DNA of 64,000 nt, from IMG/VR virus record IMGVR_UViG_3300037258_001195, positions 1 to 64,000 of that record. One strand, given 5' to 3'. Both the position numbers and the translations under genes were made by a program. Shown here one piece after another: positions 15,854-62,501 of this stretch. Within the stretch, counting starts at the first letter, position 1; the number at the start of each line of letters is the position of its first letter. The stretch is from a virus. The notes under the pieces are model-generated. The model ran no database searches. It saw only the letters and a program-made list of their open reading frames with translations, and was not told the origin of the DNA.

Positions 15854-15880
15854 CAAAAACTCCCTTTGGGAGGTGGCAAC

Positions 15881-18109: not shown

Positions 18110-19627
18110 TTACCGGCAGGGATGGTGGCCGCCCTGTTCCGGTCGTCCATTCCCCCCTTGAGAATTGCCAGCGGAAACCCGCGGCTCGTCCGGGTTGTAT
18201 TTGCGCATTGAAACCGAGCCCGATCGCCGTTCCGAAGCGTGGCGTTCGCAAGCCTGCCTGGATGTACCTGTCGCGAGCCGTGCCAACACTTCTGGCGCGG
18301 AACCAGCACCGCCAAGCGCCACCGCCCCCTGCGTCCCGTACACCATCGGCCGCTCGCCGCCCGGCACCGGGTCGAGCCCCAAGAGGTCCCGCGCCTCGTT
18401 GATCGCGTAGATGCCGCTGCGGACATAGGTGTCGATGATCTTGGCTTCTTGCGCCGCGTCGGCCGGCCGTCCCTCCGCCCACACGAATTCCAACTCCGGC
18501 TCGCCCAGCCGATCCTGGATCACGTGGTCGGCGAGCCGCTTGACCCACCCCATCAGCGGAGCCATGCCCTCGTCGAGCGCGGCCTGCTGCGAGGTTTCGG
18601 CGGTCGCGCGGTTGATCTGCTTTGTAAACGCGGTCGGCGGCAGCGAAAACGCGAAGCACACGATCCGCGCCAGCCACTCGTCAAACTCGTCCTTGTACGG
18701 CGCCTCGGCAAAGGCCTGGTATTTCGACCCGCCCGGCGCCCACACAAGCCGCGTCCGCGACGCCGTGTTGCCGGCGAGCACGCTGTCGAACCATTCCTGG
18801 AACTGCCGGATTTGCTCGGCATTCCACCCATCCGGCGCGCTCAGCAGCCCCGGCGGAACATTCCCCTCGGTGAAATGCTGGAGCTGCATGACCTGGCGCC
18901 GCAGCGCGATGTTGACGGTCATGATGATCTGTTCGACCGGCCCGAACCCATAGGCCTTATGCGGCCGCGGGTTGCGCGGGAGGTAGAGCAGGTCGTCGCC
19001 GGTCAGCAATTTCCACGGCCGCCCGCGGATCACCTGCTCGAAACCCGGCGCCGGCGGACGCGGCCGCCGCCCGGTATCGTCGATCAACAGCTTGATCGTC
19101 GCCCCATCCACCGCGTCGAGCCCGATCAGCTCGCCGGCCCGGTTGCGCCGCATCTCCAGCGCCGGCGCGTCGAGCACCAGCAAGTCTTCGAGCACCTCGC
19201 GCAGCCAGGTCGCGAACGGCCGCTCGCCATCCGGCCGCCGCCAGAACCCTGCGACCTTCGCCACCCGGCCCGGATCGACCCGCGCGCCCCTCACCCCCTT
19301 GATCTTCCAGCCGAGCTTTTCGATCTGGTCCTTGCGCGTCTCGATCGCGAGCCGCGTGATGTCGTGCCCGTCGGCGAGCGCCCGCAATTCCGCGAACGAC
19401 ACCGCCTCATAGGCGCGCGGCGTATAGATCGTGTTGGCGCCGACCGGAAAGTCCCAGACCCGGAGCGCCTCCTCGTCGATCGGCGCCAGCGGATAGCCCG
19501 GCGAGAAAATCCCTAGATCGGGCTGGAACACGTCCCGGAACTGTGCTTCGAGCCCCTGCTGCCCCCAGGTATAGGATGGGGTGAGGCCCGGGGTCAGTGC
19601 TGTGCGCTTACCACCTTGAGGGGGCAT
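18110..19627 (-). CDS. portal protein
   Basis: A 505-residue portal protein of the HK97/GTA type. Core features shared with module B are VWDFPVGANTIYTPR, the LDAVDGATIKLLIDDTGRRP segment, YGFGPVEQIIMTVN and the PPTAFTKQINRATAE stretch. The ATG at 19627 overlaps the stop of the fibre gene (TGATG). The C-terminus after about residue 430 is basic, disordered and unlike module B, consistent with disturbance by the duplication seen at 17327-17366. It forms the ring through which DNA is packaged. Confidence 0.85.
   Translation of the reverse strand: MPPQGGKRTALTPGLTPSYTWGQQGLEAQFRDVFQPDLGIFSPGYPLAPIDEEALRVWDFPVGANTIYTPRAYEAVSFAELRALADGHDITRLAIETRKDQIEKLGWKIKGVRGARVDPGRVAKVAGFWRRPDGERPFATWLREVLEDLLVLDAPALEMRRNRAGELIGLDAVDGATIKLLIDDTGRRPRPPAPGFEQVIRGRPWKLLTGDDLLYLPRNPRPHKAYGFGPVEQIIMTVNIALRRQVMQLQHFTEGNVPPGLLSAPDGWNAEQIRQFQEWFDSVLAGNTASRTRLVWAPGGSKYQAFAEAPYKDEFDEWLARIVCFAFSLPPTAFTKQINRATAETSQQAALDEGMAPLMGWVKRLADHVIQDRLGEPELEFVWAEGRPADAAQEAKIIDTYVRSGIYAINEARDLLGLDPVPGGERPMVYGTQGAVALGGAGSAPEVLARLATGTSRQACERHASERRSGSVSMRKYNPDEPRVSAGNSQGGNGRPEQGGHHPCR
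18700..18739. repeat. 40-bp repeat inside the portal gene (copy 1)
   Basis: The in-gene member of a direct repeat pair with 17327-17366 (39 of 40 bases identical, spacing about 1.37 kb). It encodes GGSKYQAFAEA of the portal protein. The interval between the copies holds the 3' part of the portal and the TPR gene. Confidence 0.9.
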
Positions 19628-22197
19628 CAGAAGCTGCTCCATGCCGCCCGCTTCCAACTATTAGGAGCGGTGCAGGCGTAAAGAAAGTTGCTGTCGAACT
19701 CGAGCTGCCCGGTCTGGCACGCCGCCGAACTCGTCGACGGCGTGCCGCCCGCCGGAAACATCCCGTTCGCCGACGCAGTCGCCGGCGTCACCGCTGTGAC
19801 CCGGAAATTCGCGCCATCGAAGGTCAGCCGCACATACTCGTAATTCTGCCCGTACAACGTCAGCGCGCTTTGAGCTCCACGCGAGCCGGGAACCAAGATT
19901 TGTCCGCCGCCGCTGCCGTTCACCTGCACGGTCAGGGTCTTGCCGTTATCGGTGACGAACCCCATCGACCACCCCGCGGCGATCGCGCTCGTCGCCGGCA
20001 GCGTGACGGTCAGGCTGGAGATCGGCGTGTTGTAGTCCGACATCACCGTCCCGCAATCGGCGAGCGCGGCGGCATAGGTGCTGACCGACGGGAACACCCA
20101 TCTTTCAAGGCACGTCCCGCCGGAGACGCCGATCGAGGCTGCCGTCACCGGCGTCACTTGCATGACCCGGAAATTCGACCCGTCGAACTGCAGCACTGCC
20201 TCCTCGTAATCCCCCGCAGCCAGCATCAGCGACGTCGCGCTGCCGCCGCTGCCGGGATAGACGATCTTGCCGCCATTGGTCGGATTGACCTGAAAATTGG
20301 CGGTCTTGCCGTTGTCATTGACGATCGCGATCGTCCAACCGGGGTTGATCGCACCCGTCTCCGGCAAGGTGACGCTCAGATACCCCAGCGGGCTGTTGAA
20401 GGCCGATATCGCCGTGCCATTATCGGCGACCGTCGTCGCATAGGCGCTGACCGACGGAAAACTCCACCGATCGATCCCGCCGGTCCCGGCCAGGCCGAGC
20501 TGCTGCGCCGTCGCCGGTGTCATCTGCTCGACCCGGAAATTGGCGCCGCCATCATATTGCAAGGTCACGTATTCGTACTGGTCACCGGCCAGCGTCAGCG
20601 ACGTCCGCGCCGCCGCGTTGACCTGCGGGTACAGGATATGTCCGCCATTCGTGTCGTTGACGTTGACCGTCAGGCCCTTGCCCTGGTCGGTCGCAAACCC
20701 CATTGACCACCCCGACGGCAGCGAGGTCGTCGGCGGCAAGGTCACGCTCAGCCCCGCGCTGGTGTTATAGCTCGACACCACATTCCCGTTATCGCCGAGC
20801 CGCGCCGCATACCCGCTCGTCGATGGAAACAGCCAGTTCCCCGGCCAGTCCCGGCTTTCGAGCCCATTCGTCGCCAGCGTATTGCGGGTCCCGAACACGA
20901 CCCGGAAATTATTCCCGTCCGACTCAAGCTGCATATACTCGTAATCCCCCGGCCCCAGCGTCACCGCGCTCAGCGACTTGCCGCCGGCGAGGATCGCTCC
21001 ACTCGGCGCCGTGATCGTCATCCCCTTGCCGTTATCGGTAGCGAACCCCATCCACCATCCGGCCCCGACCGCGCTCGGCGACGGCAAATTCACCGCCAGC
21101 GTCCCGCCGGTCGCGTTGTAGGACGACACCGCGGTGCCGCTATCGACCGCCGACGCGGTAAAGCTCGCCGCCGTCGGAAACTGCCACTGCGCCCAGTTGC
21201 CTGTGCCATTCACCTCGATCCCGGCCGACTGCCCGGCCCGGTTGACGACCGCGCCGCCGTAATTCGGGTTCATCAAGAGGTTGTGCGTGCTCGCCGTCGC
21301 GTTGACCGCGGTGACGCAATCGAAATACGGCGACACGAAGCTGTTCTGCCCGTCATGGGCAAAGCTGATGCCGAGGCAGATCGGCGACGCCTCCATGTCA
21401 AAGGCGAAGATCGTGTTCGAAAAATCGTATCCGTTTTCCAAGAGCAGCGCCGTCCCCCCGGTCCCATTGGCCGAACCGGCCCCCGAGATCCGCGAAAACT
21501 GCACCTGTTCGAGCGCCATCCCGGCGGCACCGCCCGCCGTGTCGGCGACCGCGAATATATCGCTGTCCAACACGTAATTGAGCTGCAACGCCCCCGCTCC
21601 AGCCGCCGTGCTCGCGTTGTTGACGATCAGGTGATCGAGCCGGATCGAGTTATGCGCGTCGGAGAAATCGGTCTTGCCCACCCTCACCGCATAACCCGGC
21701 GTGTCGGCATTGACGAACAGCGTCCCCTCCTGCCGGAAATAAAAGCACCCGGTCGGACTGAGACTCGTCCCGCCCGAGCACTCAACCTGCAACACCGGCC
21801 CCGATCCAACCGACCGCCCGTCGATCGTCGCCCCTTCGGACAACAGCCGAAACCCGTTCCCGGGCTGCGCGGCATAGTCGATCGTGACCTCGCTCGTCAC
21901 CTTGTAAGTCCCGGCCGGCACATGCACCGGCCAGTTGTGAGTGACTGCCGTCTCGATCGTCGCCTGGATCGCCGCCGTATCGTCGTGGCTGTCGTCACCG
22001 AGAGCTCCGTTGCAGCGCACGTCGATCCACGGCCGCCCCGAGCACATCAGCACGTCGCCGTTCATCGTCGCCGTGCCGCTCGTCGCCAATGTCGAGAAGT
22101 TCCCCGGCGATTGCGCGAGCGCGCCCCAGCCGGACGCGACGCACGCCGCAAACGCGGCCGGCGCGATCGCCCGATCGACCCACCGCATCGCCGCCAT
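19627..22197 (-). CDS. exported beta-helix fibre/spike-like protein with four C-terminal repeats
   Basis: An 856-residue protein. It begins with a probable Sec signal (hydrophobic AIAPAAFAACVASGWGALAQ). Residues about 55-320 show a pectate-lyase-like right-handed beta-helix opening (WIDVRCNGALGDDSHDDTAAI, VHVPAGTYKV). From about residue 340 four repeats of about 115 residues follow, each with FPS-type start, SYN, GWSMGFATDNGK and a Y-x-x-L-x-DG-x-NFRV end. It lies between TerL and portal, an unusual place for a spike gene. Beta-helix spikes bind or cut glycans; no catalytic residues could be assigned. Confidence 0.7.
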   Translation of the reverse strand: MAAMRWVDRAIAPAAFAACVASGWGALAQSPGNFSTLATSGTATMNGDVLMCSGRPWIDVRCNGALGDDSHDDTAAIQATIETAVTHNWPVHVPAGTYKVTSEVTIDYAAQPGNGFRLLSEGATIDGRSVGSGPVLQVECSGGTSLSPTGCFYFRQEGTLFVNADTPGYAVRVGKTDFSDAHNSIRLDHLIVNNASTAAGAGALQLNYVLDSDIFAVADTAGGAAGMALEQVQFSRISGAGSANGTGGTALLLENGYDFSNTIFAFDMEASPICLGISFAHDGQNSFVSPYFDCVTAVNATASTHNLLMNPNYGGAVVNRAGQSAGIEVNGTGNWAQWQFPTAASFTASAVDSGTAVSSYNATGGTLAVNLPSPSAVGAGWWMGFATDNGKGMTITAPSGAILAGGKSLSAVTLGPGDYEYMQLESDGNNFRVVFGTRNTLATNGLESRDWPGNWLFPSTSGYAARLGDNGNVVSSYNTSAGLSVTLPPTTSLPSGWSMGFATDQGKGLTVNVNDTNGGHILYPQVNAAARTSLTLAGDQYEYVTLQYDGGANFRVEQMTPATAQQLGLAGTGGIDRWSFPSVSAYATTVADNGTAISAFNSPLGYLSVTLPETGAINPGWTIAIVNDNGKTANFQVNPTNGGKIVYPGSGGSATSLMLAAGDYEEAVLQFDGSNFRVMQVTPVTAASIGVSGGTCLERWVFPSVSTYAAALADCGTVMSDYNTPISSLTVTLPATSAIAAGWSMGFVTDNGKTLTVQVNGSGGGQILVPGSRGAQSALTLYGQNYEYVRLTFDGANFRVTAVTPATASANGMFPAGGTPSTSSAACQTGQLEFDSNFLYACTAPNSWKRAAWSSF

Positions 22198-23950: not shown

Positions 23951-24299
23951 CCAGCTGGGCAGCGAGGCGAGCCAGACGGCGTTCAATTTCCTCAAGCGGG
24001 TCCTCGCCGGGATCGGGCTCCGGCTCGTCCTCGTGACGCCGCGGTGCCAGGGGAAAGAGGCCGAAATGCCGGGCCAGCGCATCGAGCGCGGCCTTTTTGT
24101 CATAGAGCTTCACGCGCACCCCGCCCTCGCCGCTTCCGGTCCTGCTGATCTCCGAGATCGCCGCGCGTTCGCTTTCGGACATCTCGGCGAGCGGCTTGAG
24201 CTGCAGCCGGCCCGTGGCGTCCCAGGTCACGATATGGGTGATATCGGCAAGGGCGATGCGCGCATATTCGTTGAATGCCCGCGGGGCATGGTATGCCAA
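23892..24299 (-). CDS. small terminase subunit, module A (C-terminal type, N-terminus short)
   Basis: A 135-residue protein whose core (EYARIALADITHIVTWD, LYDKKAALDALARHFGLF) is the C-terminal part of Terminase_2 family small subunits, followed by an acidic coiled tail. The usual N-terminal helix-turn-helix DNA-binding domain is absent. The start used is TTG at 24299; the frame stays open about 15 codons further upstream to a TGA with no ATG. A short ATG frame with a ribosome site (24304-24342, 12 codons) ends just before, so a frameshifted or truncated N-terminus is possible. Confidence 0.7.
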   Translation of the reverse strand: MAYHAPRAFNEYARIALADITHIVTWDATGRLQLKPLAEMSESERAAISEISRTGSGEGGVRVKLYDKKAALDALARHFGLFPLAPRRHEDEPEPDPGEDPLEEIERRLARLAAQLDEDAAAAANDAGGKTGAGN

Positions 24300-47151: not shown

Positions 47152-48807
47152 CTAGAAGGCGAAGTTGCCGGTCGTGGGATTAACGTTATTGATGACGGCG
47201 AAGCCCGGCGTGAAGTAGCACGGAAAGACTTCATCCGCATACACGCCATACTCATATCGCCGCGACCGCCAGGGCCATTGGATCTGATAATAATCCTGCC
47301 GAACGCGAGCCTCCAATATATTCCCCACGCCGCTCAGCTCATACGGACTCCGATCCGACCAGAACAAGATCGTCCCAGGCGGAATATACGGATGCAGCTC
47401 TACGTCGAGCGTATTTCCGAAGAACTTGTTGATATAGGACGTGATCTTATAGCCCGCAACCAACTGCCCCTTTTCGTTGTTCTCGAAAAAGAGCCGGAAG
47501 ATATTCGACGTGCCCGACTGACTCATCATCGCGCCGAAGCTGTTCAGCATATCGACCGAGGAGATCAAAATCCGATCAAACCCGATCTTATACTGGTCAT
47601 ACGCGGCGCGAAGAATTGAGTCGAACTCGTTGATATTGACGCCGTTAATCGTGAGGCCCGTGTTCCCGTTGGGACACGAATACACGAGCGATCCCGAGGG
47701 GCTCAACGTGACATTCGCAGGCAACGTAGCCGCAGTTGCCATCTGAGTCCCAGGCGCCGGCCCTGTGATGTTGCCGAAGACCTGATTCAGAATGCCATCG
47801 GGAGTCAGGAAATTGATTGAATTGTCCTGATAATTCCCGCCGACCTGAAGCGATGTAACCGGCTGCGCAGTTGCGGTATTGGGGAATTTCGTAAAGACCG
47901 CCTGAGTCGAGGGCGAGATGCCCGCGAGATATTCGGCACCGGAAGCCGACCCAATAAACCATGCGTAGCCCATCGCCCCGACCACGGAAGCAACCGTAGC
48001 GGTTACGATTTGGGTTGAGGACGTGCCGACACTTGCCTCAGCGGAAGGTTGTGCCGAGCCGCCGCCATAGGTATCGGACGAGCCGTCGGCGTTGATTCGG
48101 GTGATCTGCCCAAGAACACCGCCAGTTCCAGTTGCCGCGTTGTATGGAGAATAATTCGCAATCCCCATTCCCGTAAGCGCAACGGCGCGAACGTAGACAG
48201 TTCCGCCCGAGAATGACCCGGTATTTCCGCCGCCAGCGGCTCCCGCGGAGAGCGTCGGAGTCGGCGTAATCCCCAGCGGCAGATTTGCGTCGCCATTGAT
48301 GAGAAGCTTTTCCTCATCAATCATCAACGAACGAAGACTCGACTGAACACTGATCCCAAGCGTTTCCGGCGAGAGATTTCGACCCGCAAGCCGCGCCTCG
48401 AACGTGACCGAACTCTCGTAGCCGACCGTCTTAAAGGTCGCCATCTGATCCTGTTCGGAGATCGGAATACGCCCGCCACGATTACCTTCCGAGACGCCCG
48501 AGGACATTCCGTTGGGATTAATCGCAACAATACGTTTCCAATGATAGCTGTTTCCGCCGTCCGCGGCAACGCGAGGAAGCCGAGAAATTCGCGGAATCAA
48601 TTCCCGATACGGATAGAGCATCTGGACAACCGGCGACAGATCGTACCAGAGCAGATTCGTGCTCTGGGAAATCGTATCCGCCTTCGCTAGAGCATCCGGA
48701 CCATATTCCGTGTCCAGAAATTTCCTAAAGGTCTCGTTCTGCGTCAGTGCAGAGACGAACTCATTCCCGATCCCGCCAGGGCCGGTGAAAGGAACATTAC
48801 CCGACAT
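47152..48807 (-). CDS. HK97-fold major capsid protein with inserted domain
   Basis: A 551-residue capsid protein. The ATG at 48807 follows AGGAGAA. The N- and C-terminal parts match module A (MLYPYRELIPRISRLPRV, YYQIQWPWRSRRYEYGVYADEVFPCYF). An inserted beta-rich region (about residues 180-310) containing VYVRAVALTGMGIANYSPY resembles the module A insertion and probably forms a surface knob. Main shell component. Confidence 0.85.
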   Translation of the reverse strand: MSGNVPFTGPGGIGNEFVSALTQNETFRKFLDTEYGPDALAKADTISQSTNLLWYDLSPVVQMLYPYRELIPRISRLPRVAADGGNSYHWKRIVAINPNGMSSGVSEGNRGGRIPISEQDQMATFKTVGYESSVTFEARLAGRNLSPETLGISVQSSLRSLMIDEEKLLINGDANLPLGITPTPTLSAGAAGGGNTGSFSGGTVYVRAVALTGMGIANYSPYNAATGTGGVLGQITRINADGSSDTYGGGSAQPSAEASVGTSSTQIVTATVASVVGAMGYAWFIGSASGAEYLAGISPSTQAVFTKFPNTATAQPVTSLQVGGNYQDNSINFLTPDGILNQVFGNITGPAPGTQMATAATLPANVTLSPSGSLVYSCPNGNTGLTINGVNINEFDSILRAAYDQYKIGFDRILISSVDMLNSFGAMMSQSGTSNIFRLFFENNEKGQLVAGYKITSYINKFFGNTLDVELHPYIPPGTILFWSDRSPYELSGVGNILEARVRQDYYQIQWPWRSRRYEYGVYADEVFPCYFTPGFAVINNVNPTTGNFAF

Positions 48808-48843
48808 CAACGTTCTCCTAATTCAAAATTAATAGGGTGGCAA

Positions 48844-51165
48844 TTACGCCCGCTTACCGGCGGCGGCGCCACGAAAACTCGGATCAAAGATCGACCGTCC
48901 ATTCGTGCCGTTGAGGATGTAGGTTCCGGCAACTTTTCGCCGCGCACCTTCATCATTCTCAAGCTGCATCGGAGAAACGCCCGCATCCTGGATCGCCTTC
49001 ATAAGCGGGTCGCTACCCGCTCCGTCGGCGCCATTTCCGTTTCCGATGACTTTCGTCATATCAAACGCATACGGTGCACGACTGGACGTGCTGCGGGCCA
49101 GAAGATTATTCTGGGCTTCGAGCCGCGCGTTTTCGATGAAGAGCTGAGCCGTCGCGGCATCGATTCGGCCATCCTTGCCAACCGCCTTTGCCAACTTGCC
49201 CCAATCCTTGTCAAGCGCCTGGATCGGCGGCTCGCGGCTACCACCTCGCGTCCCGGGTCCAGCAGTTGCAAGATCGCTCGGCGATAGGTCAGTGACGCCA
49301 GGGGGAACTCGATAGAATTCATTCCCGTGCGTTGGCTCCTGTTCCTTCTCACCAGATCGTCCCGCCATCTTTTTCAACTGTTCCCGGGCAGCCTTGGTAA
49401 AGGTGGAGACCTTCGACAGTTCTGAATATGCCTTATTCAGCTTATCCATCGCACCAGCCGAGTCGAATTCACCATCTTCCTCGTCGGGCTTCGCCTTACC
49501 CTTCGCCGCCTTCTCCATCTTGGAGATATAATAGGCTTTGATGAGCTTGGAGCACTCCTCGATCGCACCGGCAGCTTCCTTGCGAGCCTTCGACGCTTTC
49601 TTCATATTATCGCCCGCAGACTTCATCCGCATCGCCCGAGTTGGCTGAGCCGCCCGCTTGATTACGTCGAGAATCGCGTCCTGCAGAGGATCGCCCCCGC
49701 TAGTCTTCCTGAGATCGTCGCTCGTCGCTGCCATTTCGAAATCCTCACCTAAGAATTGCATGAGATATTGGTCATCGATGTCAGAAAGATCAACTGCCTC
49801 CTGACCTTCATGAGTTGCTTTCTGACCGATGACCGAAGCCAGAATCTGCGCCGCGGAACCTAGGTCTTTCGCCAGGCCCTTGTCCTTCATATCGCCGCCT
49901 TCACCCTTCGCCTCACGAAGAAGACTTCGTTGCGCCGAGCGAATCGAGTCGAAACAGAATGCCAACGACCCAGCAACTTCCATTCGCTTCGAAAGCGGTG
50001 CGGCGAAACTATCTTGTCCGCCTTCCTGAGACTGTCCCAACGTCAGCCACGACGGGAGTACGGGAGGCGCCGCTCCGTCGTCCCTCTCAGCGGCCTTTAG
50101 GGTCAGGAAGGACGGCACTACCGCCGAGCCCGAAGACTTAGTAAGAGATTTAAGAATTACTTTCTCATTAGCGAGTTTTGAGATTGCCGATGCGCGAGCG
50201 GCTTTCTTAGCTTCCTTTGCTGCGGCTTTCTTGCCCCATTTCTCGGGCAACATATCAGTCGCCCCGAGCGCGGCAGCGCGAGCTTTGATGTGGCTCTTTG
50301 CCTTCCCTTTGTCCTTGGCACGGCCAAAAGCCGACACAGCATCCCCGAGAGCTTCTTTGTCGGGAATCGGATAACTCCCATCGGGAAGGGCAATCCCTTT
50401 CCCCGCATATTCCTTTCGTTGATCGGACGAGTACTCCCGTTTCGAAATATCTTCGCCGCATGTCGGACAGCCCGCAACTCCATGAACGGAGCAAATTTTC
50501 GTATTCGCTGCGTCTAGCGGATTGCTAGTCTGCGCGTCAAACGGCGGCTTTCCATCTGCCTTCGCTGTTTTCTTTGGCTTTATCTTCTCTTGTACGTCAC
50601 GAACTAATTCGTCCTGACTCGGGGCCTTGGTGAGAAATTCACTGACCATCGCGAAGCTATTGGCAAGTTTCTGAACACGAGTCTTCTTGGCCTTCCGAAA
50701 CGCCACTCCCGGCTCAAACGCCAATGCTCCCGTCTTGTCCATCTTTGCCATATTAAACCGACACTCTGGATTCGCGGGCCGGTCGACAATGGAGATCTCG
50801 GTCATCGAAAGTCGGGTAATCTTATTCGGATCGTTGGGATCTTTGTCGAGTTTCCGCCCCCCGATCGAAAATCCCTTATAGACCTTATCGACAACTTTCT
50901 TCCAGGCGTCGTCGTCGGAAATCTTCGCGGTCAACCAAAGTCCCTTTCGGTCAACATGCGCCTCTTCGGCAGTTCCAACGGCTTGGAGCCGATGCATCTC
51001 CCGAATATTACCATACTGCATATAATCCGGGAGAGCTGACTTAATCGCCTCAAGTGCGATCGTTTCTCCATCTGAGTCCTTTGCCTCGGTCGAAGCGTAG
51101 CCTGAGATTGTCCTCTTAGCTTCGTCGACCTTAGTGATCGGCAAAAAGAAATTAAGGTCGCTCAT
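48844..51165 (-). CDS. prohead protease with very long C-terminal extension
   Basis: A 773-residue protein. The ATG at 51165 has GGAG at good spacing; a TTG five codons earlier is less likely. Residues 1-140 are the prohead protease domain (ISGYAST, DGETIALEAI, NIREMHRLQAVG, KGFSIGGRK, EISIVDRPANPECR). Residues about 235-325 hold a CSVHGVAGCPTC cysteine pair and a DUF6582-like helical module. The remaining 450 residues are Lys/Glu/Ala-rich, helical and likely scaffold, ending in RSIFDPSFRGAAAGKRA. It is nearly twice the module A protein, consistent with a larger scaffold or head. Confidence 0.8.
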   Translation of the reverse strand: MSDLNFFLPITKVDEAKRTISGYASTEAKDSDGETIALEAIKSALPDYMQYGNIREMHRLQAVGTAEEAHVDRKGLWLTAKISDDDAWKKVVDKVYKGFSIGGRKLDKDPNDPNKITRLSMTEISIVDRPANPECRFNMAKMDKTGALAFEPGVAFRKAKKTRVQKLANSFAMVSEFLTKAPSQDELVRDVQEKIKPKKTAKADGKPPFDAQTSNPLDAANTKICSVHGVAGCPTCGEDISKREYSSDQRKEYAGKGIALPDGSYPIPDKEALGDAVSAFGRAKDKGKAKSHIKARAAALGATDMLPEKWGKKAAAKEAKKAARASAISKLANEKVILKSLTKSSGSAVVPSFLTLKAAERDDGAAPPVLPSWLTLGQSQEGGQDSFAAPLSKRMEVAGSLAFCFDSIRSAQRSLLREAKGEGGDMKDKGLAKDLGSAAQILASVIGQKATHEGQEAVDLSDIDDQYLMQFLGEDFEMAATSDDLRKTSGGDPLQDAILDVIKRAAQPTRAMRMKSAGDNMKKASKARKEAAGAIEECSKLIKAYYISKMEKAAKGKAKPDEEDGEFDSAGAMDKLNKAYSELSKVSTFTKAAREQLKKMAGRSGEKEQEPTHGNEFYRVPPGVTDLSPSDLATAGPGTRGGSREPPIQALDKDWGKLAKAVGKDGRIDAATAQLFIENARLEAQNNLLARSTSSRAPYAFDMTKVIGNGNGADGAGSDPLMKAIQDAGVSPMQLENDEGARRKVAGTYILNGTNGRSIFDPSFRGAAAGKRA

Positions 51166-51211
51166 CTTAGTCTCCGACAAATTAATCTCAGACTACGCAA
51201 CGCGCGGCGAC

Positions 51212-51454: not shown

Positions 51455-52849
51455 TTAAATTTCTCCTCGATTCAGCCGACTATCGGCCAGTTTACGAACG
51501 TATTTGATAACCCGAGCTACGGAATCAGTCCACGTCAAATCTCGCCCCTGCGTGAAGATCCTAAAATCTTCATACCACGGCGTTCCGACGGGTGAATCCC
51601 ACCATCGCCAGCAACGAGTGTACGGTCCGAGCATTACGACTGGCTTACCCATCGCTCCCGCGAGATGCACCACTGCGCTATCGACAGAAATAACCAGGTC
51701 CAATTCCTGAATAAATCGGGCGGTGTCGTAGAAGTCCTCAATGGCGTGCATAGAGTCGAGCATAAGCGCTTCTGCGCCAAGGGCAAGGACCTCTTTAGAT
51801 TCTTCGCCTTTTTGCAGTGAAATGACCTGAACGCCAGGAATTTCCATTAATGGAAGAAACATTGAGAGCGGAATAACTCGACGCCGAAGGCTCAATGTTT
51901 TCCCGTGATCGCCAGAAGACCAGCAAAGACCAATTTTAAATTTACCAGGAATTCGGCGAATAAGGGGCTCTTTTACAGTCAAGTATGGTTCCGACGAAAT
52001 ATCCTTCGGCATAATTTCCGAATGCCGAATCATACTCAGCATGGGTGTGTGAAAGTCAAAGTTCTTCGCATTCGCCTCAGGTGGAAGACTTTCACAATCC
52101 CAGACCTGAATATCCGGAAAGTTCTCCGCGAACAAACGGACCAAAGGTGCTGCGGTAGCTAAAACGATGCTCCGGGTCCGCGTAGAGAGCTTCGCCAAAA
52201 ATCGAACGAACATCAGACTATCGCCATAGCCTTGTTCGTGATGGACTAAGATGCGTTTTTCGTCTAGATTCTCTCCCTGCCATTCAGGGATGCCAAGGTT
52301 CCAGACGGGATTCTTATACAATTCCTCCCACCGAATCTCATAAAGTGGAAGACCCTGGTCGAGGCGCCCTTGCGACATAATCGTTAAAGCGTGATCGTTC
52401 TTGGTTGCGTAGGCGTCGTAACCCAAAGCTCGCGCGCGCACCATCGCGTCTTCGGCGTCAGCGAACCTATTCTGACGATACAGCAACGTCCCGTAAGTAT
52501 GCCAAATTGCCGGATCACTTGGCTTAAGCCGCCTAGCTTCTCGCAATTGCTCCCGGGCGCCATCAATCCGACCAAGCGCAACCAAATTAATCGCCAGGTT
52601 GTTCCGCGCTTGAAAGTCCTTTGGATCAATTGCAACGGCGCGCTGCCCGACGGTAATTCCCATCTCATGCTTCTGGAGCTTGTAGAGGATTCCCGCTAGA
52701 TTCGACAAAACAACCGAATTATTCGGATCAATAAGAAGTGCTCCCATGTAATGGACGCGAGCGATTTCAAATTCGCCAGCCATTTGATGCTGGCTACCTT
52801 TGAGATTCAGCCCGTAAATTCGACGAATCGAATTATCATCCAACGGCAT
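51455..52849 (-). CDS. TPR-repeat glycosyltransferase (GT9/GT41-like)
   Basis: A 464-residue fusion. Residues 1-170 are tetratricopeptide repeats (ALLIDPNNSVVLSNLAGIL, AVAIDPKDFQARNNLAINL, ARRLKPSDPAIWHTYGTLL). Residues 190-460 form a GT-B-type transferase domain like those linked to TPRs in many bacteria: HHEQGYGDSLMFVRFL, LCWSSG, and VISVDSAVVHLAGAMGKPVVMLGP, the donor-binding signature. Located between portal and protease; module A has a TPR protein in the same slot. It may glycosylate virion proteins, with the TPR part binding the target. Confidence 0.8.
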   Translation of the reverse strand: MPLDDNSIRRIYGLNLKGSQHQMAGEFEIARVHYMGALLIDPNNSVVLSNLAGILYKLQKHEMGITVGQRAVAIDPKDFQARNNLAINLVALGRIDGAREQLREARRLKPSDPAIWHTYGTLLYRQNRFADAEDAMVRARALGYDAYATKNDHALTIMSQGRLDQGLPLYEIRWEELYKNPVWNLGIPEWQGENLDEKRILVHHEQGYGDSLMFVRFLAKLSTRTRSIVLATAAPLVRLFAENFPDIQVWDCESLPPEANAKNFDFHTPMLSMIRHSEIMPKDISSEPYLTVKEPLIRRIPGKFKIGLCWSSGDHGKTLSLRRRVIPLSMFLPLMEIPGVQVISLQKGEESKEVLALGAEALMLDSMHAIEDFYDTARFIQELDLVISVDSAVVHLAGAMGKPVVMLGPYTRCWRWWDSPVGTPWYEDFRIFTQGRDLTWTDSVARVIKYVRKLADSRLNRGEI

Positions 52850-53589: not shown

Positions 53590-56073
53590 TCAAGCGTTAA
53601 GTTGTAACCAACGGGGGCCGGAAGAAAGCCTCTTCTTAGTCTTCTTCATTCTCTTCTTCCGTTGCGGGCCTAAGTCCCTAGAAACAAGATTCGTTCCGGT
53701 CGAAATGGTATCCATCTTCTGGACCAACGCACCTCGACGTGCAACGATAGTTCCAAAGCCTTGCCTAGCAATCGCATGTTTGTGGTCGCCAGTCTTGAGC
53801 CATCGCTTAAACTCGTCCATCGACATCGCGACCATCGCGCCGAGACGTTCTGGACCAAGTCCATCTCCGTTCGAAGCGAAATAATCGTCCATCACGGCTT
53901 TGGATTTACGATATCCAAGAAAGACCTTGTGTTCGTCGAATAATCCGGTCTGCGCGTCAAACTGATCCACCACGAAGACAAACGGGCTTTTAGGATGTCG
54001 GCCGATGCAGACATCAATCTGATCTCCATCGGCGCCCAAGGTTCCGCGGAGATATCCGTAATCTCCGGCCATTTTAGATGACCATTTCGTCCCGTCATCT
54101 TCATGCCCATGGCGTTTCTTCCCCTTCGGGGTTTCAATCGAAATGCTTAACCCTTGAAGCCAAACATGGGCTTTTTTGTAATTTCCGGCTTTCTTCTGGT
54201 GCTTTGAGGGTTTCTGGACATCTTTGGTCGCGGCGCGCAGGACGGAGTACGCGAGCTTGTGGATTGTGGTTGGAGTTCCTGAAGGCTCCCCATGAGGCCG
54301 TGGCGAGCCGCGCTGCGCGGTGTTCTCACCTTTTGGCTGCGGGCTTCCATCCCCCTTCGGCTTACTACCCGACAATTTCGGCTTACCGCTCGCGTCGTCG
54401 CCTAGACTTCCACTACCCGGCGCGAACTGTTGCCCCTCAACTGCCATGTGAAGAGGGACAATTCCCGCCCCCGTCGTAACAGTTGCAATATCCCCATCGT
54501 CGGCAAACGGTTCTTCACCAAGCTCGGCGCGAATTTCATTCCGAGTCCGGACTCCTTCGTTGATCTGAATTTGCTGAATCTGAGCTTGTTTTAGCAAATC
54601 AACTTCGGGCCGTGGAAGATAGACAAATTCGACATCGTCATAGCCAAAGGCATTTATGATCGGGTCAATTACGTCGTCTTTCCACCAAGTCATAAGGGGG
54701 TAGAGACCCTCTTCCTCGGCAGTCTGTTGTGCGTTTTGCGCCGTCGAGCGATTGGTCTGTTTGATGAATGGAGTTGGACTAACCGAGAACGCATAACATG
54801 CTAGGCGGATTAGCATTTCATCTCTATTGGACCAGAGACTCTCACCCGAAGCGTTTTTAATGTCGAAAGGTTTCATCCCACCAGGAACGAAACGGACCTT
54901 CGATTTGAGAGTCAGATTCCCCGAGAGAACTGCATCGAAATGGGCTTGAAAGGATGCAATCTGGCGTGGCGTCCATTGATCTGGAACAGTCACGATTAAC
55001 TCGGGCATCGAGCCATTACGCCAAAATTCAGCCTGATAAAGGGTTTTTCGAATCGCCTCGGTCGTTTCGATAAGCATTTGTTCAATAGGCGAATAGCCGA
55101 ACATCGGAAGTTCGGGTCGGGGTCGCATAATCGGATAATGAAGCTCATCTTCCGACAAATTAATCATCGGAAGCCCGTAGATGATCTGTTGAAAGGCTGG
55201 CTGGCGACGGATGTAGGTTAGCCCGTCGGGACCAACTTCAACCGTCGTATCGGGACGCCGGCCCGTGTCGTCGATCAGGGGAAAGATCGTCGCGCCATCA
55301 AGAACTTGGGCATATTGAACTTGGTCCGTTCGATCGCGACTAATGTAGATACTGGGAGCGTCGATGTCGAAGAGATCGAAAAGCAGCTTTCGCGACCATT
55401 GGGAATAGCTCATCTTCCCGTCGGGCTTGCGAAAAACCTTCTTCATGTGCTCGACGCCAATAGAAGTCTGGCGTGGTTTGTCTTTACGTTGAATCGTCCA
55501 GGGAATCCGAAGCAACTGGTCCATGCGGGTTGATTCGACCGTCGCCAGAACGCCCCAAGAACTCCGCATCGCGCGAAGCATTCCATAAAGGGCCATACGC
55601 TTGGGGACGTAATTTAGATTATATCCAACCGGAAAGTCCCATTCCCGGGGAACGTTGTAATAGGGCGGACCAAAGGGCCAAACTGGCTCCATTGGGCTAT
55701 ACCAGACATTCGCCATATCAACGTCGTCAATCCACGGCGGCGGCTGAGATAGACGCTCGTCGGCGTATTTGGATCGACTAGGGTAGTTCTCATTTCCCCC
55801 AGGAACACCGAACTGTTGCGGAAATTGCTTCAGTCCGGTTCCTTGGTTTCCAGACGGGCGATTTCGGGGGCCGGTGGGGGCAAATGACGATGTGTTCTGA
55901 TACGCCCGCCCCACCATTCCAACACCAGGGTTGTAGCCGGGGGAGACGGGAATTCCGCGCGACTTAGCGAAATTGTCTTTATCTTGCGACCATTCCGAGA
56001 AGCTCTGACGCGGACGTGGCGAGAATTGATCTGCCTGAAGGTCGCGGAGCTTCGTTAGGAATTCATCATTCAT
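53590..56073 (-). CDS. portal protein fused to an InPase-like (polyvalent protein) domain
   Basis: An 827-residue protein. Residues about 130-530 form the portal (REWDFPVGYNLNYVPKR, LDGATIFPLIDDTGRRPD, FGYSPIEQMLIETTEAI, TPFIKQTNRSTAQ). After a basic Pro/Gly-rich linker, residues about 635-757 match the InPase-like domain of phage polyvalent proteins: GDYGYLRGTLGADGDQIDV, FVFVVDQFDAQTGLFDEHKV, SMDEFKRWLKT. The ATG at 56073 is preferred over an earlier one. The final 50 residues are basic. The fusion could place the domain inside the head for injection. Confidence 0.85.
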   Translation of the reverse strand: MNDEFLTKLRDLQADQFSPRPRQSFSEWSQDKDNFAKSRGIPVSPGYNPGVGMVGRAYQNTSSFAPTGPRNRPSGNQGTGLKQFPQQFGVPGGNENYPSRSKYADERLSQPPPWIDDVDMANVWYSPMEPVWPFGPPYYNVPREWDFPVGYNLNYVPKRMALYGMLRAMRSSWGVLATVESTRMDQLLRIPWTIQRKDKPRQTSIGVEHMKKVFRKPDGKMSYSQWSRKLLFDLFDIDAPSIYISRDRTDQVQYAQVLDGATIFPLIDDTGRRPDTTVEVGPDGLTYIRRQPAFQQIIYGLPMINLSEDELHYPIMRPRPELPMFGYSPIEQMLIETTEAIRKTLYQAEFWRNGSMPELIVTVPDQWTPRQIASFQAHFDAVLSGNLTLKSKVRFVPGGMKPFDIKNASGESLWSNRDEMLIRLACYAFSVSPTPFIKQTNRSTAQNAQQTAEEEGLYPLMTWWKDDVIDPIINAFGYDDVEFVYLPRPEVDLLKQAQIQQIQINEGVRTRNEIRAELGEEPFADDGDIATVTTGAGIVPLHMAVEGQQFAPGSGSLGDDASGKPKLSGSKPKGDGSPQPKGENTAQRGSPRPHGEPSGTPTTIHKLAYSVLRAATKDVQKPSKHQKKAGNYKKAHVWLQGLSISIETPKGKKRHGHEDDGTKWSSKMAGDYGYLRGTLGADGDQIDVCIGRHPKSPFVFVVDQFDAQTGLFDEHKVFLGYRKSKAVMDDYFASNGDGLGPERLGAMVAMSMDEFKRWLKTGDHKHAIARQGFGTIVARRGALVQKMDTISTGTNLVSRDLGPQRKKRMKKTKKRLSSGPRWLQLNA

Positions 56074-56477: not shown

Positions 56478-56708
56478 TCAGTGAAAGACAAGATCGCTTC
56501 CATTCTCGGGCGAAATCATTTGGTCCGGTTCTGTTTCGCCCCGTTTGGCTTGGATTTTTGCGTAACCGACAATCTCAAGATTCCGCAATTTCACGGCGCG
56601 GAGCTTGTTCTCGACCGCGATGATTGCCAGGGGCGAACCTTTTCGTCCGGGTGCGTAGCCTACGACCATACCCTCTTCGCCGGACTTGAGCTTGACCAAG
56701 AGCTTCAT
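56478..56708 (-). CDS. small beta-barrel-like protein after large terminase
   Basis: A 76-residue protein: MKLLVKLKSGEEGMVVGYAPGRK and AIIAVENKLRAVKLRNLEIVGY, reading like a small SH3/KOW-type barrel. It overlaps the terminase stop. Possibly a nucleic acid-binding or packaging accessory protein; unassigned. Confidence 0.55.
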   Translation of the reverse strand: MKLLVKLKSGEEGMVVGYAPGRKGSPLAIIAVENKLRAVKLRNLEIVGYAKIQAKRGETEPDQMISPENGSDLVFH

Positions 56709-58195
56709 GCCGCGTCCCTCGCATGTCCATAACCAGCGCAGCCTGGATGCCAGACAAATTCCCCGTCCGACACGCGATCCCCGGCCGAAACTGGGTCACC
56801 GCAGCGATGACATGTCCGCTCGCGGCGCGGCGTGAGGGCTTCGACGGTGGATTGATAGATTTTCGTCAGTTCGTTCTCGAAATCGACACCGAGATTCTCA
56901 TCTTCGTGATTCCACGGGAGCCGCGGCTTCGGATCGTCAGAGACATTCTCGATTGTCCGCTTGGCTTCGCCGGCGTAGTAGGACATAAGGCTCGCCCCGG
57001 GCGCGACTTCGGTCAGCATTTGGCGCGCGAGAGCCAGGGAACACACGCAATCGTCGTTATGTCCCTCTGGGGCAGAATATCTAACGCCAGTACGGGTGGT
57101 CTCGTATTCGAAAATTTCCAATTCTTGGGAAATCGGCCCCTCGGGATAACCGATGTCGTGGCCTTGAATAGAGACGGAAAGCCCCTCCATCAGACGCTGC
57201 TTCGAGAGTTGGGTGAAATTATAGCCTGTGAAATTTCCATGCTCGACCTGGAGTTCTTCCAGTACTGGGTCGCCAACTCCGGTTGAGTCCACCAGGGCCG
57301 GCGTGTCTTCCCCGACAATCGCGTGGATGCGCCGAATTGATTCGGTCCAGGGAACTCCGCGCCACCGCTCGAAAACAGCCGTTTGACCATCCTCATCGAG
57401 GCCAATGACCACGAGATAGTCTTGTTTTTTCGCGAGGTCGACGCCGAAGGCAACTGCGGGCTTGAGGCTTAGACCGTTTTGGATGCACGCGGAGATATGG
57501 GCAAAGCCGAATGGGTTTCCGCCGTCGTCACTGGCCGCCGCCTCATACAGCTCCAGGAAGACTTGTTCGGGAAGATTTCGCCGAGCGTCTTCGATTTCCT
57601 CGATGTCCAGGACGCCCGCATCGACCGCGTCGCGCCAAGTGATCCGCTCGAAATGTGCGTTGGGGTCTTTGCCTGCCTCGACTCGGCGCGCCCACTCGTA
57701 GAACCAATTCCTTCGGCCCTTGACGTTGCCGATGATAACCGCCCAGCCGCGCGTTGCGGTCAAGGTTGATCGGACGGCATACCATGCTTCCGGGCGGGCG
57801 CGGCTAGCTTCATCGATAACAGCGCCGAAGACGTCTTCGCCATAGAGACTGTCGGGATTGTCCGCCGACTTAAACCAGAGGACTGCGCCGGTAATTAAGG
57901 TGATTGATGGAGTCGGGCTTTCGCGCGCCGTGAAAGATCCCGCCGTTAGGTTTTGCTTGACGCGGGCGAAGGCGATCCGAGCTTGGTCGGAAACCGGCGC
58001 GACCCACCAGAAGTTCTGGCCGAAAGTCCCATTCAGGCCGGCCTCGATGAGCCGCACGATCGCCCCGACAGTTTTGCCTGATTTGGTTGAGGCTTCGCAA
58101 AGAGCCCAACGTTTGGACGGGAATATGGCGCGTTCTTGCTTTGGATATAAATACGGGCGCTCGTAAACGGTTATGGGTGAACCAGTTTCGTCCAA
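56705..58195 (-). CDS. large terminase subunit, module B, with C-terminal zinc knuckle
   Basis: A 496-residue terminase. ATPase: Walker A CEASTKSGKTVGAI, Walker B region VFGAVIDEASRARPEAW, and the nearby IIGNVKGRRNWFYEW. Nuclease: FGVDLAKKQDYLVVIGLD, LVDSTGVGDPVLEEL and GHNDDCVCSLALAR. Residues 462-486 add CHRC-x17-HPGC (C462, C465, H483, C486), a likely zinc site absent from module A. The start is TTG at 58195 with GGGAGA upstream. The ATPase pattern differs from the GTA-type terminase of module A, so the packaging engines are not recent copies. Confidence 0.88.
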   Translation of the reverse strand: MDETGSPITVYERPYLYPKQERAIFPSKRWALCEASTKSGKTVGAIVRLIEAGLNGTFGQNFWWVAPVSDQARIAFARVKQNLTAGSFTARESPTPSITLITGAVLWFKSADNPDSLYGEDVFGAVIDEASRARPEAWYAVRSTLTATRGWAVIIGNVKGRRNWFYEWARRVEAGKDPNAHFERITWRDAVDAGVLDIEEIEDARRNLPEQVFLELYEAAASDDGGNPFGFAHISACIQNGLSLKPAVAFGVDLAKKQDYLVVIGLDEDGQTAVFERWRGVPWTESIRRIHAIVGEDTPALVDSTGVGDPVLEELQVEHGNFTGYNFTQLSKQRLMEGLSVSIQGHDIGYPEGPISQELEIFEYETTRTGVRYSAPEGHNDDCVCSLALARQMLTEVAPGASLMSYYAGEAKRTIENVSDDPKPRLPWNHEDENLGVDFENELTKIYQSTVEALTPRRERTCHRCGDPVSAGDRVSDGEFVWHPGCAGYGHARDAA

Positions 58196-59086: not shown

Positions 59087-59755
59087 TCATCCGTTCCAAT
59101 CGACGATTCCGGTTCCGGTAAAATGGCCGAGAGATGTCAGATCCATTTTCGGGTGCGCGATGTCCCGCCAAAGATAGATCATATTGGGCTCGCGTATGTC
59201 GTCGAAAATCACAATTGGATTATTGTCGAATTCAGCATTATCCAGAAGTCGTATGAATTTATGTTCTGTTTTTCCATCCTTGGGTCCGTCAACGAAAATT
59301 AGATTTGCTGCTTTGAATACGGGAAGCTTGAATAATGTAGGGTCTATCATATCTCCAGTTAATTGGAGAATTCGACCATTGGCGAAATCGGAATCCTCAA
59401 ACCAATTTTCCTTGTATTTAGTATTATCGACCGTGATGATATTGCAATTTGCAGGAGCACCTTCTGCCAGGGCGATGGTTCCCATTCCGGTGTAAGTGCA
59501 AAATTCCCAGATTATTTTCGGCTGGAATAGCTTTGCGGCACAGGTCAATAGGTTGTAATGTTCTCCAGGCCAATGCTTAAACCAAGGGTATAAGCCGTCT
59601 CGATTTCGATTTGCTAACAAAGGGTGCTCAACGGTCGAGATATGTTCACCAAGGTATTCGACGAAATTCAAGATTCTTCCACTTGGACCTGAGCTAGGAT
59701 CATCGTCGAGAGAGATGAGCCGGCTTGGATAGTCCCAACGGGGTTTTGTGCTCAT
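59087..59755 (-). CDS. class I SAM-dependent methyltransferase (Methyltransf_24-like)
   Basis: A 222-residue methyltransferase. The SAM-binding region is around WEFCTYTGMGTIALAEGAP, followed by an acidic strand end ITVDN, and NLIFVDGPKDGK and VIFDDI as later landmarks. Members of this group methylate small molecules and sugars. It overlaps the next methyltransferase gene by 4 bases and belongs to the glycan cassette. Confidence 0.72.
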   Translation of the reverse strand: MSTKPRWDYPSRLISLDDDPSSGPSGRILNFVEYLGEHISTVEHPLLANRNRDGLYPWFKHWPGEHYNLLTCAAKLFQPKIIWEFCTYTGMGTIALAEGAPANCNIITVDNTKYKENWFEDSDFANGRILQLTGDMIDPTLFKLPVFKAANLIFVDGPKDGKTEHKFIRLLDNAEFDNNPIVIFDDIREPNMIYLWRDIAHPKMDLTSLGHFTGTGIVDWNG

Positions 59756-60339
59756 AATGGTTTCTCCGCTTCAAAGGTCATAGTTTCGAGTTGGAGGAAT
59801 CCGGGCGGCATTCGGGAATCGTTCTCAAGGTTCTGGAAGGTTTCATCCTCGCTCTTTCCGATCGCGCACCGTTTGAAGTCTCTAAATCCGACTGAATTCA
59901 TTGTCAGACACAAGGCTTCTTGGGTATATATGAATTGATGTCCCCATGCCCGAACGAAATTATTTACGACGTATGCTACCGAAAAGGATGAGTGGCCCTG
60001 GGGAAGTCGAAACTCCCGCGCTGCCCAATTTATGTAATTATGTCGTTCTAGGCCAGCGGGGTCGGACAAGAGGGCGGCGAGGAACATGAGGTCGGGGGTT
60101 GAGATTCGAATGCGCCCGCCGGGCTGGAGGACTCGATAGCATTCCGCGAGCATGTGTAGTCCATCTTTCGCACTTATGTGCTCGATCATGTGCTCGGAAA
60201 AGATTCTGTCGATCGAATTGTCGTTGAAAGGAAATCGCTTTGTTGCATCAAGGAATGTTGTGTTTTCGCGGCGACAGATGTCGGCATTGATCCAGCCGTC
60301 TAGCGGATGATCGCCGCAGCCGATGTTGAGCTTCTTCAT
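59752..60339 (-). CDS. SAM-dependent methyltransferase (Methyltransf_11-like)
   Basis: A 195-residue methyltransferase. MKKLNIGCGDHPLDGWINAD is motif I, FSEHMIEHI and VLQPGGRIRISTPDL are the post-motif signatures common in methyltransferases of polysaccharide and O-antigen clusters. Placed between a glycosyltransferase and another methyltransferase. Confidence 0.8.
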   Translation of the reverse strand: MKKLNIGCGDHPLDGWINADICRRENTTFLDATKRFPFNDNSIDRIFSEHMIEHISAKDGLHMLAECYRVLQPGGRIRISTPDLMFLAALLSDPAGLERHNYINWAAREFRLPQGHSSFSVAYVVNNFVRAWGHQFIYTQEALCLTMNSVGFRDFKRCAIGKSEDETFQNLENDSRMPPGFLQLETMTFEAEKPL

Positions 60340-60340
60340 C

Positions 60341-61192
60341 TTACGGCCTCGCTAGGACAGAATCGCAAAACTTGTCGAAAACTTCAGCGCCCGATGGCTC
60401 GGTTTCTTCCCATCGCTTCAGGCCGTCGATAATCTCATACAGGGCGTGGAGGATGTCGTTCGTTGCGAGATATTGATCTTTTCCGGGGCCATGCTGAGCA
60501 TTTTGCAGTCTCTCGAATGCAAATTCCCAGACGTCTTTCGGTGCCCGCATTCCGCTGCGATCTTTCTGGTCCGTATAGCGATTGGTTTTTTCGAGCCACG
60601 CCGAGATGTCTTCGTGGGAGAGATGGTCGATATAGACGGGAAAATCTGGACCTGATGGTGCAATATTTCCGACAATCTTTGCCCCCGCATGTACGGTGTC
60701 AGTTCGTTGTATTGCACCTTTTCGGTACAACGTTGGGCGATATTCTGGCCAATATCTAGCACGCGGATCATGACGACCGAGAATCCAATGTTTGATCGGG
60801 ATCATTAATACGTCAAAATTGGGGGCGCCTGGTATACTGTCGTTGTTAACAAAGTTTCGCAGGAAATATTCTGCCCCTTCCGAGAGGATCTCGTCGTCGT
60901 CGAGGCAAATTCTCCAGTCGTGTGTGCAGAGGATGTCAGCAAAAGCGCGAGTTGGCTCGACGGTTGGGGACCAATCTGTTCGCTGATATTTGATATTATA
61001 TTCACGCAATATATCTACATTCACTAATTTGGGAAATAGGAATGCGCTATCACGTAATATCTGTCGTTTATCAACTAGAATAAGTTCATCAACCCAACTA
61101 GCAGCTTTAAGGGTTGCGGCCAAAATCTTGTCGCTTCTGGTTCCCGCTGTTATGATGAAGGCGCTGATTGGGGTCTGTTTGATTTTGCTCAT
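60341..61192 (-). CDS. GT2-family glycosyltransferase
   Basis: A 283-residue GT-A-fold transferase: ISAFIITAGTRSDKILAATLKAA opening, WVDELILVDK, and the metal-binding DDDE in ICLDDDEILSEGAEYF. Later motifs include RPTLYRKGAI and IDHLSHEDISAW, frequent in polysaccharide GT2 enzymes. It overlaps the oxygenase gene (ATGA). Expected to transfer a sugar from a nucleotide donor in the cytoplasm. Confidence 0.82.
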   Translation of the reverse strand: MSKIKQTPISAFIITAGTRSDKILAATLKAASWVDELILVDKRQILRDSAFLFPKLVNVDILREYNIKYQRTDWSPTVEPTRAFADILCTHDWRICLDDDEILSEGAEYFLRNFVNNDSIPGAPNFDVLMIPIKHWILGRHDPRARYWPEYRPTLYRKGAIQRTDTVHAGAKIVGNIAPSGPDFPVYIDHLSHEDISAWLEKTNRYTDQKDRSGMRAPKDVWEFAFERLQNAQHGPGKDQYLATNDILHALYEIIDGLKRWEETEPSGAEVFDKFCDSVLARP

Positions 61193-61833
61193 GGCTCGAT
61201 TGCCTCTTGCAGATAGTATTCTCCGGGGACAAACTTCAGTCCCTGATTGACGCTTTTGCCTGCGTGAGTTGGGTCAAACAGGCGAACGGGAAGGACTCGA
61301 AAATCAAAGCTGACTCGAGTGGTCTTTGTGTCGTTGATCAAGTTTCCATGTCGAACGCGATTAGCGTCGAACATGATTGCTTGGCCGAAATGCGTGTTAA
61401 TTGGAATTGCTTTATGGCTTTCATCTTCGATCCAAATCGAATTGGATCTTCGGGCGTCGGTTAGGGGAAGCCAAAAGTTCACCTCTCCCTCCGGGTGGCC
61501 GTACTTGAGGTCCGTGTGAAATTCGCCGACGGCTTTGTTGCCAATTAGGCTAATTCGAAATGTCGGGATTGCCTGAACATAAAAGGGTTCGGTGATTATA
61601 GGGCCTACAAACTCACGTATGAATGCGGTGTAGAGGGTTTTCCAGGTTGAAAACCCGGCATAAAGTTTTTTGTGAAATTCTGTCTGTTGGTCGTCCTCGC
61701 GTTTGCGGACGCTAATTCCATAGCTGTAAAGTTTTGATAAGTCTGCTGTTTCTAGCGTCTTTGCTGTTCGCGTTGCGAAAGGAAATTCTTCGGTCGAGTA
61801 TTGAAGGACTCGATATAGCTCGGGAGTGGTCAT
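61189..61833 (-). CDS. 2-oxoglutarate/Fe(II) dioxygenase
   Basis: A 214-residue double-stranded beta-helix oxygenase. Iron ligands are H106 and D108 in FHTDLKYG and H162 in RVRHGN; R173 in TTRVSF should bind 2-oxoglutarate. The pattern GNKAVGEFHTD and SIWIEDE resembles oxygenases of antibiotic (StrG) and sporadic carbohydrate clusters, which hydroxylate or oxidise sugars. Lying between two glycosyltransferase genes, coupled to both, it probably modifies a sugar; a nucleobase target cannot be excluded. Confidence 0.8.
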   Translation of the reverse strand: MTTPELYRVLQYSTEEFPFATRTAKTLETADLSKLYSYGISVRKREDDQQTEFHKKLYAGFSTWKTLYTAFIREFVGPIITEPFYVQAIPTFRISLIGNKAVGEFHTDLKYGHPEGEVNFWLPLTDARRSNSIWIEDESHKAIPINTHFGQAIMFDANRVRHGNLINDTKTTRVSFDFRVLPVRLFDPTHAGKSVNQGLKFVPGEYYLQEAIEP

Positions 61834-62501
61834 GGGAGTTCCTTCCACTCGATCTTAGACCGCACATAGTTGTTAGCGAGTGATTTCCAGTCCAGATATT
61901 CGGCCGAGGGGAGGACTTTCGGAACGTTGAAGATTCCGTGGAAGCCGAAAGTCGACCTCGGTGCCTCGCGCTCGAAGGAGAATTCGCTCGCTACGTCCAA
62001 TGGTGCCCACTGAAATCCTTCGGCCTCTAGGGCGGGTCGATATTCTCGGCAGAGGGTTTCGTCTTCGGGAATGATTGGGGGAAATTTAGTTGGGTTGTTG
62101 GCAAGAAATCGCATCAACTTCGTTGAGCGGAGGCTGAATCCGCCGTTTCCGACATTATGGCTGGTATGCCACGGCCAGGGTGCTCCGATATAGTCGTATT
62201 GAATCCAACTGGGATTCCAGCGGGTTCCGTCGAGAACGAAGCCGTCGTATTGGATGTGAAGGACGTGGGAAGCTAGCACCCCAATACCTGCTGGAGAACT
62301 CCATCTAGCACGTTCGACTTCCTCCATTGATCGAATACAATGATAAAAGTTTGTAGTTTCTCCGGTAAAATTTCTGTCAGAGATGCAAATAATGTCTGCG
62401 GGGGTGATTTCCTCTAGTGTTTTATTGATTGCTAATTGGGTTAGCTCGTGCGCCACGCAATCGATGACGAGGACCGCAACATTGGGAAGGTTCGTCGGCA
62501 T
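61830..62501 (-). CDS. DUF5672-type putative glycosyltransferase
   Basis: A 223-residue protein of the DUF5672 type, found with sugar transferases. The family's features are present: HIQYDGFVLDG, QYDYIGAPWPWHTS, VGNGGFSLRSTKLM, the acidic PEDETLC and the FGFHG closing motif. It opens the coupled cassette; its stop overlaps the oxygenase start. Confidence 0.8.
   Translation of the reverse strand: MPTNLPNVAVLVIDCVAHELTQLAINKTLEEITPADIICISDRNFTGETTNFYHCIRSMEEVERARWSSPAGIGVLASHVLHIQYDGFVLDGTRWNPSWIQYDYIGAPWPWHTSHNVGNGGFSLRSTKLMRFLANNPTKFPPIIPEDETLCREYRPALEAEGFQWAPLDVASEFSFEREAPRSTFGFHGIFNVPKVLPSAEYLDWKSLANNYVRSKIEWKELP

Follow-up and report, generated by a model that had tools for sequence, protein, structure and literature searches.

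An inorganic pyrophosphatase-type domain on the C-terminus of a viral portal protein

What is a pyrophosphatase-like domain doing at the end of a portal protein, and where would it act? The question is raised by a single gene in a stretch of 64,000 nucleotides (positions 1 to 64,000 of the IMG/VR virus record IMGVR_UViG_3300037258_001195), hereafter called the window. An earlier note, made from the sequence alone, had read this gene as a portal fused to an inorganic pyrophosphatase (InPase)-like domain of the polyvalent-protein type. We found one uninterrupted frame on the minus strand, which runs from an ATG at 56073 to a stop codon at 53590–53592 with zero internal stops, and the coordinates given for the fusion proved exact (Table 1). 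The domain identities read by the note were right as well, and both parts match their Pfam models above the curated cut-offs: Phage_portal (PF04860) with E 2.5e-15 and 56.9 bits (cut-off 39.1) and InPase (PF18823), in the profile search that the note had suggested as a check, with E 1.4e-43 and 148.4 bits (cut-off 26.8) over model positions 2–135 of 135. In PHROGs, aa 165–627 match the portal family phrog_2662 (E 1.5e-53). A full-length model of the protein (mean pLDDT 66) consists of a portal domain at about aa 155–541, a linker disordered at about aa 551–606, the InPase domain and a tail disordered at aa 783–827. Fold searches with this model ranked portal and neck chains top (E 7.5e-16), the best matches being the portals of phage 812, HFTV1, HK97 and T5; by profile and predicted fold the protein is an HK97-type (PF04860) portal. 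With an effector-type domain joined to a portal and encoded among virion genes in a head module, it has the domain make-up of the polyvalent proteins of Iyer et al. The idea of a portal–InPase fusion has been in print since 2017, when Iyer et al. described InPase domains fused to portals with Burkholderia phage BcepF1.124 as the example (PMC5512222). These authors took the portal fusion to suggest injection and proposed that InPase may act on nucleotides or clear pyrophosphate (PPi) (PMC5512222).

The fusion gene lies within a normal head module made up of the terminase large subunit, portal–InPase, an S78 protease, a probable capsid protein and connectors. It holds the only InPase domain of the whole record, and the MuF profile (PF04233, Pfam) had no match anywhere in its 92,987 bases. 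Between portal and protease a TPR protein is encoded (51455–52849) whose C-terminus resembles family 9 glycosyltransferases, and more glycosyltransferase- or methyltransferase-like frames were recognized by eye at 59087–62501. A second portal of the same family, without InPase, is found in the same record and is 35% identical to the portal of the fusion over aa 129–541. It is part of another head module of a related phage in the same orientation (terminase 22643–24103, portal 18110–19657, protease 16036–17247 and capsid-like protein 14363–15856, versus terminase 56705–58195 onward for the first module). Also, the GC content of the window drops from ~0.66 to 0.51 at ~28.2 kb (1–28200 versus 28200–64000). 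The two head modules and the GC step point to two prophages side by side or to a contig that is chimeric. A record that looks composite in this way could suggest that a frameshift or an assembly error merged two genes into one; however, ~26 kb separate the fusion from the GC step, and the same fused frame is repeated in ~20 independent contigs. These contigs rule out a chance frame and such an artefact, the latter's probability being practically nil in our view, and with it the frameshift that the note had named as a finding that would overturn its reading.

Table 1. Positions of the portal–InPase gene, its parts and selected neighboring genes in the window
Feature	Position	Strand	Description
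Portal–InPase fusion gene	53590..56073	(-)	827 aa, coordinates including stop codon; open frame and translation, Pfam and PHROGs matches
Portal core	54517..55506	(-)	aa 190–519, PF04860 match
Variable linker	54208..54450	(-)	aa 542–622; predicted disordered at about aa 551–606, pLDDT 31–45
Conserved linker island	54280..54324	(-)	aa 584–598, family consensus NxPxRG(P/A)x(R/K)Pxxx(S/T)P
InPase domain PF18823	53794..54201	(-)	aa 625–760, Pfam match and predicted family I inorganic pyrophosphatase fold
Metal-site motif D682-G-D684-Q-I-D687	54013..54030	(-)	Equivalent to E. coli PPase D65/D67/D70; alignment and residue tally
C-terminal tail	53593..53763	(-)	aa 771–827; DTIS motif, Lys/Arg cluster, terminal GPRWLQLNA
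Terminase large subunit	56705..58195	(-)	Upstream of portal; phrog_2, E 5.3e-31
S78 prohead protease	48844..51180	(-)	778 aa, long C-terminal extension; PF04586 E 1.1e-7; head maturation protease phrog_80 E 2.6e-21
Probable major capsid protein	47152..48810	(-)	phrog_13692 (unnamed) E 1.5e-82; role from gene order, downstream of protease
Second portal without InPase	18110..19657	(-)	515 aa, same family; PF04860 E 7.4e-25

A scan of IMG/VR yielded 39 relatives. About 20 of them have portal and InPase fused in a single frame, mostly at 52–61% identity to the window protein; the portal relatives found in a scan of the genome collection were InPase-free ones only. InPase is located C-terminal to portals of three Pfam families: PF04860 (the window's clade and L129), PF06381 (the E217 group, L135 and L139) and PF06074 (L118). 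Other members of the window's own portal family bear MuF (L033, L036 and Brevundimonas phage Polewnik) or no extra domain (several, including the second portal of the same record). The portal–MuF fusions are comparable to the window protein in that a PF04860 portal is extended at the same C-terminal place, but they carry MuF where the window protein has InPase. A MuF match was found in none of the eight checked records having a window-group portal with InPase, the window's own included; E217, XcP1, L135 and L139 combine InPase on the portal with a separate MuF gene. In the InPase tree the window clade stands apart from the E217/Pbunavirus-type clade (67-row branch 97/95; E217 group 100/99), but a tree in which both were forced together was not rejected (AU p = 0.163). 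We consider multiple origins of the fusion likely, mainly because the portal families differ and sister portals are InPase-free, although the InPase tree does not prove them. The 'putative portal' of Achromobacter phage CF418P1 (2,684 aa) was discarded as a further portal fusion since it had no match to either of two portal profiles constructed for this analysis. A frame of 1057 aa in L135 (2159–5329) combines Phage_portal_3, DUF5661, InPase and a eukaryotic-type topoisomerase I catalytic domain, which by its domain matches is a portal with several cargo domains. In L038 (29–3037) and L039 (3–1643) the portal relative is split by an intein-like insert of ~375 aa (about aa 314–689) with a LAGLIDADG-like domain inside.

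The InPase domain was modeled separately with AlphaFold2 on the InPase alignment (pLDDT 86.9). The best 50 Foldseek rows against the PDB were all inorganic pyrophosphatase entries, several of them site-directed mutants, with modest scores (E from 4.2e-4, TM ~0.45); VIA-align 2 gave a middling Z of ~7.4 with 3.6 Å over 114 residues. The predicted structure, a check that the note had likewise suggested, is that of a pyrophosphatase-type OB fold and matches family I pyrophosphatases. Cellular members of this family (PF00719) share fold and active-site residues with the window InPase, which matches their Pfam model with an E of only 0.02; according to Iyer et al. phage InPases are without a beta-hairpin found in the cellular enzymes (PMC5512222). 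All five aspartates (D682, D684, D687, D703 and D713) as well as K716 are kept in the window InPase. For comparison we use E. coli PPase residue numbers, which we take to correspond on the basis of the DGDxxD and FDEHK motifs and general knowledge rather than a residue-level superposition. In the window's clade the equivalents of E20, an active-site Arg, Y55, D65, D70, D97, D102 and K104 do not vary. Position D67, the proposed general base of E. coli PPase, varies: among 22 family members it is Asp in the window and 8 relatives, and it is replaced in the other 13 (Met 10, Gln 1, Ser 1, Glu 1). In 82 other InPase domains, mostly not portal-fused but still containing the later recognized portal fusions L118 and L129, the same position holds Asp (68) or Glu (14) and nothing else. 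The close pair L003/L004, in which the position is Met, has a dN/dS of 0.048 in InPase versus 0.034 in the portal part; it is the one pair for which dN/dS was usable, as the remaining pairs were saturated. The value indicates that purifying selection keeps InPase even in domains that lack the proposed general base. The window InPase itself is likely to be enzymatically active, because its metal ligands are complete. The conserved function may be something other than ordinary PPi hydrolysis, because D67 is replaced in about half of the close relatives and the D97 equivalent is Asn in Pbunavirus-type portals. Apart from Iyer et al. and two related reviews, literature searches on D67 in family I PPases and on portals together with pyrophosphatase yielded no further result.

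The InPase domain is followed by a strongly basic tail (14 Lys/Arg versus 2 Asp/Glu in 57 residues), and the alignment shows the pattern DTIS, a Lys/Arg-rich stretch and GPRWLxL to be kept in most members of the portal–InPase family. In L011 (2698–6633) the frame continues beyond GPRWLSL into the next protein, 1312 aa in total, as if the stop had been lost. The conserved basic tail, the MuF domain at the same place in relatives, the replacement of D67 in 13 of 22 family members against Asp or Glu only in the 82 other domains and the purifying selection on a Met-type domain (L003/L004, dN/dS 0.048) would all suit a domain whose enzymatic role is lost or secondary and which, close to the portal, binds metal, phosphate or DNA to aid packaging, a pressure signal or DNA retention. 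We consider this unlikely: the remaining catalytic residues are invariant, the window copy has all five aspartates, and a module for binding alone would hardly be expected to retain this set of one Glu, Arg, Tyr, four Asp and Lys. Less probable still, in our view, is that InPase is a portal-resident module with altered chemistry in this clade. It has lost D67 in about half of the lineages while staying under selection, and it occupies the place of MuF at the inner end of sister portals. In this view it would not be a delivered pyrophosphatase; together with the conserved, basic GPRWL tail it would form a portal component that responds to nucleotides, phosphate or DNA.

Where the domain is located in the virion can be judged from known systems. 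BcepF1.124, when re-examined, matched a portal profile with its N-terminus and carries InPase at aa 691–831 of the open frame. It has an InPase of the same family (PF18823) C-terminal on the portal as in the window protein but is annotated 'minor head protein', and its portal is of the gp19/PF06381 type instead of PF04860. In the phage collection 457 records match this InPase, 292 of them from Pseudomonas; the Pbunavirus records among the matches listed are mostly annotated 'minor head protein', with the InPase mostly unannotated. The gp19 of E217 (L045:4096–6393) bears this name and is the portal itself, with InPase, so that the name appears to be wrong. A sequence search of the PDB furthermore identified the same InPase at residues 637–758 of the gp19 'Portal' of Pseudomonas phage Pa193 (PDB 9b41, 765 aa). 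These Pbunavirus proteins resemble the window protein as portals with a C-terminal InPase (PF06381 plus PF18823), but differ in the portal Pfam family, the Asn at the D97 equivalent, a separate MuF gene that follows and the lack of the basic GPRWL tail. Cryo-EM of E217 gp19 revealed a dodecamer, modeled for residues 97–528 of 765, with a C-terminal barrel that extends into the head. For the Pa193 portal, density of residues 529–765, which include InPase, was not discernible, and the N-terminal 93 residues were undetected by LC-MS and may be cleaved. The word 'pyrophosphatase' is absent from the virion papers of both phages. By homology with gp19 of E217 and Pa193, which has the same domain, a 12-copy portal with an inward-pointing C-terminus is supported for the window protein too, and InPase would lie inside the head. 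The 12-copy location within the head that the note had proposed thus gains support through homology. The missing Pa193 density agrees with a domain that is tethered or has been removed. Other carriers of InPase are a Clp-type protease fusion, an 'internal head protein' and giant DarB-like proteins; the Clp-type fusion of Cellulophaga phage phi13:1 (L058:3929–6040) is annotated as virion-structural by MS/MS. Location inside the virion is the common trait of these carriers.

The linker between portal and InPase is the least conserved part of the protein, with a mean pairwise identity of 31% compared to 70% for the portal and 55% for InPase. The note had called it basic, but with 11 Lys/Arg and 7 Asp/Glu in 81 aa it is only mildly so. 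Within it a short island is conserved, with G589 in 22/22 family members, Pro at position 586 in 21/22 (Ala in the window), Arg or Lys at 588 in 19/22 and P593 in 19/22. It is our guess that this PxRG island could be a processing, cleavage or docking site. The S78 protease of the head module is a candidate processing enzyme; we know of no cleavage motif for it. In-frame starts near the domain, from which a free InPase could be translated, were rejected as they were without a good Shine-Dalgarno sequence (best 3/6).

We propose that InPase is an enzyme cargo domain on the inward C-terminus of the portal, present 12-fold in the head, freed by cleavage and acting early in the next infection; taken as a whole, we give this reading an even chance. 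Twelve fusion polypeptides would form the portal ring at one capsid vertex, the dodecamer being assumed from homologues, and 12 InPase domains on flexible tethers would be placed close to the packaged DNA within the head. The domain would most likely hydrolyze a phosphoanhydride, either PPi itself or a similar bond within a nucleotide. As long as InPase is covalently joined to the portal it cannot leave with the DNA, and on an uncut tether it stays at the portal; delivery into the host, which we infer from the virion-internal nature of the other InPase carriers, would require cleavage. A cut in the linker, possibly by the S78 protease encoded in the head module, would free InPase to leave with the DNA. 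At an early stage of the following infection it would then clear PPi or a defence nucleotide.

Rather doubtful, in our estimate, is the alternative that InPase is never released but stays attached to the portal, removes PPi close to the complexes of replication or packaging, either within the procapsid or in the cell producing the phage, and later is inert cargo. The fusion is covalent and linker cleavage is a proposal, no convincing internal start for a free InPase was seen, the absent Pa193 density is equally explained by flexibility, and portal subunits are made in the cell in which replication yields PPi. However, packaging motors set free ADP and Pi rather than PPi, and the repeated joining of InPase to virion-internal proteins thought to be injected would be odd if the domain acted only in the producing cell. 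PPi clearing is nevertheless one of the alternatives listed by Iyer et al. (PMC5512222). Data on activity, cleavage or injection of any portal-fused InPase were not found.

Beyond prior reports, the present analysis adds the occurrence of InPase on three portal families, the D67 variation, with purifying selection in the one measurable pair, the PxRG linker island and the conserved basic tail. Portal-fused InPase is widespread: the domain is present in ~290 Pseudomonas phage records, and E217-type members lie within solved virions in which it has gone unremarked. Lineages that have lost D67 are natural variants for probing InPase function. At stake is whether enzymes destined for the next host use portals as docking points, a question that bears directly on the 2017 proposal of polyvalent-protein delivery.
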